A stretch of 64,000 bases of DNA, taken from contig NC_007778.1 of the NCBI RefSeq assembly GCF_000013365.1, forward strand, positions 1,178,001 through 1,242,000, in the 5' to 3' direction. The position numbers and the translations under genes are program-made. The notes beneath the pieces were generated by a model. That model did no database searches, was not told the origin of the DNA, and saw only the letters and a list, made by a program, of their open reading frames with translations. Source of the DNA: Rhodopseudomonas palustris HaA2 (GTDB lineage Bacteria > Pseudomonadota > Alphaproteobacteria > Rhizobiales > Xanthobacteraceae). This document shows positions 47,321-55,678 of this stretch, one piece after another. How positions within the stretch are numbered: position 1 is the first letter of the stretch; every line of letters begins with the position of its first letter.

Positions 47321-47412
47321 GTGACGAAGCCGCGAGAAAGCTGGGGATTATGGGGGGTCTACTCTCTGTCGTTCAGGCCGAGGACGAGTTTCGCCGGCCA
47401 AAGAGCGGCGGA

Positions 47413-48525
47413 CTAAAGCGCGTCGTTCTTTAGGGTACAGGTAAACTCAAGCGCTTCTTCGACGTCAGAAATCACCCGGCACGAGAATTCATCGGCTAGT
47501 TTCGGTCGCAAACGCGATATCGCTGTTCGCAGGGGGGCCTCAGTGAAGAAAGCTCCGCAATAGCCAAGTGCTGCGCTAGCGTGCTGAAAATCGTATATGT
47601 CATTCCCGTTGAGTTTCCGAGTTTTGTCTCGTCTGATGTCGGCGTGAAGGCAAGCGTCGATATAGAGAGTTGGAAGGCTTCGTCGCATTTCCGGCTTGTT
47701 CTTCAGAGCATGAAAAACTGCATTGGCGCAGACATTGCGCGTTTTCATCCATGCAGCGTCTCCGCGTTTTGGTGTTGCTAATCCCTGTTTCTTTCCCATA
47801 TCGCAAAGGACGTCGGCGGCTTTGTCCGCACAAAGATCGGCCGCGCCCTGGAGTTCATGCGACCACGCCTGCTCGAAGCTACGTATACTGTCAGAATGCT
47901 CCGCGTTACCGGCGTTTAGCCTGCCAGCAGTATTCGCGAATGAGAGGTCCTCAAGAGCCGAAGTATCGAGCAGACCCATGATCTGCGTCAGTCGGATCTG
48001 CCACATCTCATCGAAAAACGCTTTCTGCAGCGCCAGTTGAGTGCTCTTCTCAAAAAGATCTGACTGAGGATGAACGAAGCCTAATACATAACCTACCTTC
48101 GTCCAAACTAGAAATCTTAGAGGGTGAAGCCGAGTGTCTGGCGTCATCAAAGAAAAAAAGAAATGGGCGGTCTCTGTTGCTACTCTCTGCTCGCTAGTTA
48201 GCAGACTTATGCCGAGACTGAGTTCATCCACAATCTCTGCGGTACGCCGTCGCGATGAGATGTCTGTCTGTTTTAGAATCTCCGCGAACGTGCTGTCGCT
48301 GATCGGGCAGAATGCTGCGCCGTCTTTCACTTGAATCCGAAGTTCATTCAGAAGATTGCCCGCTGCTCCTCCATGCAGGGCTCCATTGCGGAGTAGAATC
48401 CAGAATTTGGTGTCGAGATAGACCGGAGTTCTTCTTTCGATTGATTGGCCTAATTCAACGGTGCGGTTCTTCACGTACTGTTCAAGAGACACGTGCGGTG
48501 AGGCTAAATGTTCTTCGATGGACAT
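47413..48525 (-). CDS. Low-GC hypothetical protein with PIN-like nuclease motifs
   Basis: This 370-residue protein has no obvious named family. Its motifs fit a PIN-domain nuclease: PVYLDTKFWILL with Asp38 as the first acid, DSTFAEIL with Glu82, NDIYDFQHASAALGY with Asp309/Asp312, and AFFTEA at 325-330 in the usual hxTxD position. About 220 mostly helical residues separate the second and third motifs, far more than in VapC toxins. There is no signal peptide. Base composition is about 50% GC against roughly two thirds in the flanks, and codon use is foreign. It breaks the dciA-dsbA-smc order, pointing to horizontal acquisition. No antitoxin-like partner is adjacent. A defence or RNA-cleaving role is inference. 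Confidence 0.7.
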   Translation of the reverse strand: MSIEEHLASPHVSLEQYVKNRTVELGQSIERRTPVYLDTKFWILLRNGALHGGAAGNLLNELRIQVKDGAAFCPISDSTFAEILKQTDISSRRRTAEIVDELSLGISLLTSEQRVATETAHFFFSLMTPDTRLHPLRFLVWTKVGYVLGFVHPQSDLFEKSTQLALQKAFFDEMWQIRLTQIMGLLDTSALEDLSFANTAGRLNAGNAEHSDSIRSFEQAWSHELQGAADLCADKAADVLCDMGKKQGLATPKRGDAAWMKTRNVCANAVFHALKNKPEMRRSLPTLYIDACLHADIRRDKTRKLNGNDIYDFQHASAALGYCGAFFTEAPLRTAISRLRPKLADEFSCRVISDVEEALEFTCTLKNDAL

Positions 48526-48623
48526 GGGTTAATTGCCAGGTCGAGGGGCGACGAATGTGCGGGCTTCCAATGTCTTGCGGCTGGCCTGCGTCAGTGATTT
48601 GAATTACTCCTAAAGACTCGCAA

Positions 48624-48806
48624 TCACTCCCGATCGCGCTCGGCGCGCAGCACATCGGCCGGCGCAACCGAGGGGGCCGTTTCGGTGCGGCTGTGCAGAC
48701 GCGCGCGCACGGATTTGCCGGCACGGCGTTTTCTGCGCCGGATCACGCCGGCGGCCATTAGCATCACGACAAGCAGAGTAGCGAGTCCATATAGGATAGG
48801 GCTCAT
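48624..48806 (-). CDS. Small single-span membrane protein (60 aa)
   Basis: A 60-residue frame begins MSPILYGLATLLVVMLMAAG, a membrane helix, and continues as a highly basic cytoplasmic tail (IRRRKRRAGKSVRAR). GGAGGA lies 5-10 nt before the ATG at 48806. It has the high GC of the host, unlike the adjacent PIN-like gene, and sits 98 nt upstream of that gene on the same strand. I recognise no family. The good ribosome site and hydrophobic-then-basic layout support it. Confidence 0.5.
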   Translation of the reverse strand: MSPILYGLATLLVVMLMAAGVIRRRKRRAGKSVRARLHSRTETAPSVAPADVLRAERDRE

Positions 48807-48879
48807 CGAATCCTCCGCAGAGCGCTGCGGTCGAATGAAAATAGGACCATGCCCAGCACCGCGCAACCGAGGTTTTGGT

Positions 48880-49019
48880 GTCCCGCACGCGGTGCAGCGC
48901 GGAGCGCTGCTCCGCAGATGCGGGACCCCGGTTTCTTCTCGAGTAGCAAGTGTTGTGAGCCTGCGAAGCGGGGTCCCGGCTCTGCGCAGCGGCACTGCGT
49001 GCCGCAGCGCGTCCGGGAC
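48880..49019. repeat. Paired 47-nt hairpin repeats, family E
   Basis: Two 47-nt hairpin arms at 48880-48926 and 48973-49019 both start GTCCCG and end CGGGAC. They are also inverted copies of each other, so each can fold alone or the pair can fold together. It is a fifth repeat type, within the islet between dsbA and smc. Confidence 0.7.
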
Positions 49020-49027
49020 ACGGGGGA

Positions 49028-49597
49028 AAGATCGCCTCTTGACAATAATCCTATTATGATTATAGTCCGCGTTGTCCTGTCCGTGAGGGGCGCTTCGCGA
49101 GGCGTCGTACAAGCGGGACAGATCGACGGGTTGGGAAACCAGCCCGGAACGATGGCCCGGTGAAGCTGACCTTGGTCGGCGAAGTCGGGCGGACGCGGCG
49201 TCCTGCGCGTTGCGGTTCGCACCCGCACGTCCGGGAGGCTTCGGGGACCCGTCCGGGCCTACTACGAGGCTCTGCGACCTGTTAGTTCGCTGCACGGGGG
49301 CAGGTGAAGGCGGCGTAATCTGCCGGACCGTGGGGTTTCATTACCCTTGCCTGTCAACGGAAGCACGGGCCTGAAAGCCAAAAACCGCCGCAGGTGGGCG
49401 CGCCGACGAGGCGTTGCGCGATGACTTCGACAGAAGCCATCGCGAACTCACCACCTTTGCGCCACGCGGCGCGCCCCCACCCCTCGCTGTGAAGCGACGG
49501 GTGCACACCTCGGACGCATCATGCGCCGCGAGAGCGAATGGACGTGGCTGTTTGATATCTGAATCTGTCGGCGCGTGTGGGTTCTCAACTTGCACGC
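49028..49597. other. Unexplained non-coding stretch in the dsbA-smc islet
   Basis: About 570 nt hold no convincing gene on either strand: frames are short, lack ribosome sites and change base bias. An AT-rich start (TAATCCTATTATGATTATAG) is followed by GC-rich sequence with many short complementary runs such as GACGGGTTGGGAAACCAGCCCGG. It could be a diverged mobile-element remnant, a dispersed repeat or a structured RNA. Confidence 0.4.

Positions 49598-54525: not shown

Positions 54526-55678
<1,153 letters not shown>

Follow-up and report, generated by a model that had tools for sequence, protein, structure and literature searches.

A horizontally acquired single gene in Rhodopseudomonas palustris HaA2 encodes a predicted split PIN nuclease, a candidate solitary anti-phage toxin

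PIN toxins normally require a separate antitoxin. Among PIN proteins with a demonstrated role in immunity, DS-3, identified with DefensePredictor (DeWeirdt et al. 2026, PMC13092281), is a validated one-protein defence system of E. coli with a split PIN and no antitoxin; defence is lost in its catalytic mutants, and its authors suggest auto-inhibition. DS-5, from the same study (PMC13092281), is a two-protein PIN RNase defence system with a DUF5830/AcrIF4-like partner. A third point of reference is provided by the HARPs, PIN enzymes of the VapC group whose fold is interrupted by a helical domain that forms the dimer interface; this insertion can serve both dimerisation and substrate binding, and its spike is short and clusters positive charge (PMC8266387, PMC10941002).

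We describe here a 370-aa protein, the split-PIN protein, whose gene lies in the 64-kb stretch of Rhodopseudomonas palustris HaA2 DNA analysed (hereafter the window). Its closest known counterpart is DS-3, which, compared by description only, is likewise one protein with a PIN divided between its N- and C-terminal parts and without an antitoxin; DS-3 is an E. coli system with demonstrated anti-phage activity, whereas the window protein is known from its sequence and a model. DS-5 resembles it as a PIN RNase that functions in anti-phage defence rather than as a toxin-antitoxin pair, but consists of two proteins. The likeness to VapC, the PF01850 toxin of type II VapBC systems, extends over the whole PIN core (Z up to 10.0) and to the positions of the acidic residues D38, E82, D309 and E329; VapCs, however, are ~130–140 aa in length, whereas the window protein carries a helical insert of ~170 residues, has no antitoxin gene and falls below the PF01850 cut-off. 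The adjacent cognate antitoxin by which VapBC systems are recognised is missing, and the insertion in which the gene lies holds the split-PIN gene only. With HARP (protein-only RNase P of Aquifex and archaea, PIN_5) the protein has in common a PIN fold with a helical insertion, apparently at the same part of the fold, but the HARP spike consists of two basic helices whereas the insert of the window family is much longer and neutral to acidic, and the window gene is a rare accessory gene. The Pfam HARP models gave no match, and HARP chains are absent among the VIA-align matches listed, an absence that excludes nothing.

The gene is an intact open reading frame, from ATG to stop, in the ORF list of the window. 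Its GC content is 51.1%, with 52.8% GC at third codon positions (58/42/53% at positions 1/2/3), whereas the long ORFs of the window average 68.0% GC (sd 2.3) and 85.7% GC3 (sd 7.1); its GC3 thus lies ~4.6 sd below the mean, in full agreement with the original prediction, made from the DNA alone, of a low-GC gene between high-GC flanks. The same depression relative to the flanks recurs at all 12 loci where the gene is found intact (two-sided sign test, 0.0005). The insertion carrying the gene is present in one of 16 genomes of the genus, its lower end lying upstream of smc within the smc–dsbA interval; the sister species have matching flanks and, at the insertion site, 275 bp (G581) or other sequence. 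The predicted horizontal acquisition is supported by the absence of the insertion from the 15 other genomes, and the data support a horizontally acquired single gene lying between two housekeeping genes. The protein is single-copy in its own genome, absent from all 295 other sampled genomes of the family, and found in five of 397 genomes of the order, its own included. No convincing target-site duplications or inverted repeats were seen at the insertion ends, and no structured RNA was found in the region.

Alignment of the 12 members of the family, in which the relatives are 25–52% identical to the window protein, identifies as invariant the residues P10, Y36, L37, D38, W42, I43, R46, C73, P74, E82 and K85, together with E118, W141, G149, D172, N308, D309, D312, H315, A319 and F326. 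The motifs noted at the outset, YLDTKFW (D38), FAEIL (E82), NDIYDFQHA (D309, D312) and AFFTE (E329), occur in the order expected for PIN nucleases, and are not chance resemblances, since D38, E82, D309 and D312 are invariant among the 12 sequences. The active site was originally drawn from these four residues, and on this point the assignment needs adjustment: comparison with VapC suggests that E329 probably fills the fourth acidic position of the PIN site, leaving D312 as an extra invariant acid. Position 329 is acidic in every family member, nearly always E, with D in one (L005). Likewise, the gap of about 220 residues described between the second and third motifs is real (226 residues from E82 to D309), but about 50 of these correspond to normal PIN core, and the true insert comprises ~170 (roughly residues 111–283).

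Searches with sequence profiles say little by themselves. The full-length protein has no PIN or other meaningful match in Pfam, NCBIfam, PADLOC or the PDB sequences, and none of the 12 members matches PADLOC-DB 2023 at E<=10; the family is rare, unnamed and absent from Pfam, NCBIfam and PADLOC. A PIN signal emerges only when the insert is removed, PF01850 then being the sole Pfam match in two of nine trimmed members (E 0.098 and 0.12; 109 of 120 profile positions), although below threshold: against the gathering cut-off of 23.6 bits, the full-length protein gives no match and the trimmed form scores 13.7 bits. Profile comparison with VapC-type proteins from the same genome and from the loci of two relatives places NDIYD, with D309, on the third aspartate of VapC (P 0.00095, probability 22%), and the insert-free core profile matches none of the PDB sequences. 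The evidence at this level is weak, and it is the fold that carries the PIN assignment.

The AlphaFold2 model, built with 11 family sequences, has a pLDDT of 87.1 and a pTM of 0.86. In it, a strand at 33–37 is followed by D38, E82 lies in a helix at 77–84, D309 and D312 lie in a helix at 307–322, and a strand at 325–327 precedes E329; these secondary-structure positions of the acidic residues agree with those in VapC. Structural comparison by VIA-align, restricted to the chains that Foldseek ranked, returns VapC toxins as its top eight matches (Z 10.0–6.9, with 124–134 residues aligned of 130–138 at 2.6–3.7 Å), followed by PIN chains of the SSU processome (Z 6.7 and 6.1), with unrelated folds from 4.4 down. 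The point against a PIN reading is that plain Foldseek, searching the PDB and viral structures with the complete model, gave no significant match and no PIN; presumably the insert helices dominate its ranking, as VIA-align found the VapCs among the same candidates. The model thus indicates, with very little doubt, a PIN fold whose alpha/beta/alpha core is split by a helical insert, as the original prediction had anticipated (Table 1).

Table 1. Coordinates within the window of the split-PIN gene, its parts and the adjoining features.
Feature	Position	Strand	Basis
Split-PIN protein gene	47413..48525	-	ORF; 12-member family with invariant acids; AlphaFold2 model; VapC matches
PIN core, N-terminal half (residues 30-108), with D38 and E82	48202..48438	-	Modelled beta1 at 33-37, helices to 103, beta at 106-108; invariant Y36 L37 D38 W42 I43 R46 C73 P74 E82 K85
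Helical insert (residues 109-284), of neutral to acidic net charge and apparently not an autonomous unit	47674..48201	-	Helices in full model; poor fold alone; charge
PIN core, C-terminal half (residues 285-370), with N308 D309 xx D312 and E329	47416..47673	-	Modelled helix 307-322, beta 325-327, beta 350-352; D309 aligned with third VapC Asp
Foreign insertion of ~1.26 kb, with only the split-PIN gene inside	47358..48622	.	Same-genus flank matches stop at ~47357 and begin again at 48623; absent in 15/16 genus genomes
60-aa ORF just upstream: membrane-protein N-terminus plus the 28-residue C-terminal end of a FitA-like antitoxin; remnant not insertion-specific	48624..48806	-	75% identity to residues 48-75 of the complete G420 FitA-like antitoxin

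The insert, which is 148–180 residues long in the relatives, is less conserved than the core (mean majority fraction 0.43 vs 0.59) but carries the invariant residues E118, W141, G149 and D172. Predicted alone it folds poorly (pLDDT 62, pTM 0.42), whereas inside the whole protein it is modelled well, and it therefore appears to depend on the core. Its architecture raises the question of a non-toxic, RNA-processing nuclease similar to HARP, in which the insert, like its counterpart in the protein-only RNase P of Aquifex, would be a spike for substrate binding and dimerisation. That HARPs are VapC-group PINs with a helical dimer interface inserted at apparently the same fold position (PMC8266387, PMC10941002) speaks for such a role, which we nonetheless hold to be decidedly improbable: the net charge of the insert ranges from 0 to -12, neutral to acidic in 11 of 11 members scored, its length greatly exceeds that of the two HARP spike helices, and the sporadic distribution (5/397 genomes of the order) and low GC are more in keeping with accessory cargo than with an RNA-processing enzyme.

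The relatives are found in two Bradyrhizobium genomes (52% and 49% identity), one Rhizobium, three other members of the same order and an alphaproteobacterial MAG, and also in a Thiotrichaceae MAG, two Mucilaginibacter and one IMG/VR contig; the distribution is patchy. Two further loci carry decayed copies, one split by an in-frame TAG (L018) and one reduced to a 43-residue fragment (L008). No relative was found in phages and no enterobacterial relative on plasmids; the viral contigs yielded one relative, on a contig that also has a SIR2 gene. A defence context for the homologues, as originally envisaged, is found at six of the 12 intact loci (L002, L005, L007, L009, L017 and L019) but not at the window copy. 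At L002 a PD-Lambda-4 A homologue (1037 bits) ends 14 bp ahead of the split-PIN start codon, and CARF6-type genes are also present; at L005 a Hachiman-like HamB helicase adjoins the gene, with a weak TIR match further on; L007 has HipA nearby; L009, a plasmid, has AbiEii-type, nucleotidyltransferase, HEPN/Toprim and AbiV genes; L017 has a TIR-beta-propeller protein, recombinase-like ORFs and a VapC-like ORF; and at L019 the gene follows that of a SIR2 protein by 185 bp. The chance of at least five of 12 loci lying near defence genes is 4e-6 to 6e-4, for a density of 1–3 systems per Mb that was assumed, not measured. Against a defence reading stand the window copy, which has no defence neighbours, and four others (L003, L004, L015 and L016) that also lie among apparently housekeeping genes; L006 could be assigned to neither setting. 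Within the window, a PADLOC scan of 50 ORFs (E 1e-10) gave matches that we read as housekeeping cross-matches, among them an orphan methyltransferase match, probably CcrM (54529–55659), and LmuB/AriA-type matches, probably SMC and ABC ATPases; weak single hits were for this reason not counted as defence.

Two neighbouring proteins are recorded here as observations in their own right. A 390-aa protein in Mucilaginibacter sp. Bleaf8 (L006, 3274–4446, minus strand), 3.5 kb from the split-PIN gene, has a PIN-like start (KVYIDTNILND) and no PIN Pfam match. On the Bradyrhizobium conjugative plasmid (L009, 11126–13453), a 775-aa protein directly after the split-PIN gene has a C-terminal SEC-C motif and a remainder without any Pfam match.

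The variety of these neighbours also bears on whether the protein is a PIN partner subunit of larger defence systems, such as PD-Lambda-4 or SIR2, with the window copy a stranded piece. The close spacing at L002, where the gene starts 15 bp after the A homologue, and at L019 would suit such an arrangement, and yet the partners differ by locus, at least four other relatives have no such partner, and the window copy is intact; we therefore regard this as quite improbable. PD-Lambda-4 was rejected as the parent system, the other A homologues retrieved having no PIN relative nearby within the sequence examined. Across the family loci no constant small gene was seen beside the relatives, and because the partners differ between loci none appears obligatory, and no obligate antitoxin is indicated.

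On balance we favour a horizontally acquired PIN RNase that restrains itself and works alone as an anti-phage toxin. The components of this reading differ in strength: a catalytically competent nuclease is likely; a role in defence or as a toxin is fairly likely; and restraint by the insert is a tentative proposal. The notion of an unusual PIN-type effector gains support from the predicted fold, the invariant acids, the insertion and the defence genes at half of the intact loci. The two halves, residues ~30–108 and ~285–370, would come together as one VapC-like alpha/beta/alpha core, in which D38, E82, D309 (with D312) and E329, by analogy with VapC, would bind the catalytic metal ion or ions for RNA cleavage, the target probably being tRNA or rRNA as for VapCs. 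The ~170-residue insert would pack against this core and either keep the nuclease off or make its activity conditional on oligomeric state or a signal of infection; after its release the enzyme would block translation, and phage growth would stop. A restraining or gating role for the insert is suggested by the lack of an antitoxin and by the insert's dependence on the core. Since the enzyme travels alone it must presumably restrain itself, and how a toxin is kept silent until infection would thus become testable in one polypeptide.

A bolder proposal, which we think unlikely in its entirety, is that these proteins make up an unnamed family in their own right: one-protein split-PIN immune nucleases with no sequence relationship to DS-3, VapC or HARP, whose helical insert is both infection sensor and off-switch. 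Toxin, inhibitor and sensor would then reside in one chain, moving as a mobile single-gene cassette into housekeeping intergenic regions and defence islands. Since Pfam, NCBIfam and PADLOC have no entry for the family, and recognisable defence islands are lacking around about half of its members, the usual annotation and guilt-by-association approaches miss it.

The site of insertion has a toxin-antitoxin history of its own. The 60-aa ORF upstream, whose start matches a small membrane protein, lies 98 bp from the split-PIN gene, which is downstream of it. In the same smc–dsbA interval sister species G420 has a complete FitA-like antitoxin with a VapC immediately after it (PF01850, E 1.7e-10; L046, 1556–2172), and the split-PIN gene occupies the place held by this VapC. 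The proximity of an antitoxin tail, the complete fitA/vapC of G420 and the VapC fold would together accommodate an orphan VapC-like toxin restrained by a separate antitoxin, either a host protein or the upstream tail remnant, with a role in addiction or stress response rather than defence. The same fused ORF, however, is present in G581, G609 and G527, all without a PIN gene, and is hence not a dedicated partner; we read it as evidence of a re-used site, not of a partnership. As the other relatives also have no constant small gene beside them, we consider an orphan toxin of this kind improbable.

Very improbable, in our estimation, is a recently inserted gene that is silent or decaying and has no current function in its own genome. 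The insertion has no sigma-70-type promoter match, and the copies at L018 and L008 are degraded; on the other hand the reading frame is complete with every invariant residue, and in Alphaproteobacteria little can be concluded from scans for promoter consensus sequences.

The smc–dsbA toxin-antitoxin locus itself is seen in different stages of decay, with the fusion in four genomes of the genus, the full pair in G420 and a C-terminal VapC remnant in G512. The smc-adjacent slot of sister species also contains low-GC ORFs (48–55%), two of ~200 aa (G527; L041, 3897–5442) and one of 141 aa (G420; L046, about 2180–2650), and for this reason looks like a small insertion hotspot. Nearby, window positions 48878–49300 form an interspersed repeat, pieces of which recur dozens of times in the same genome and in sister species at roughly 75–93% identity.
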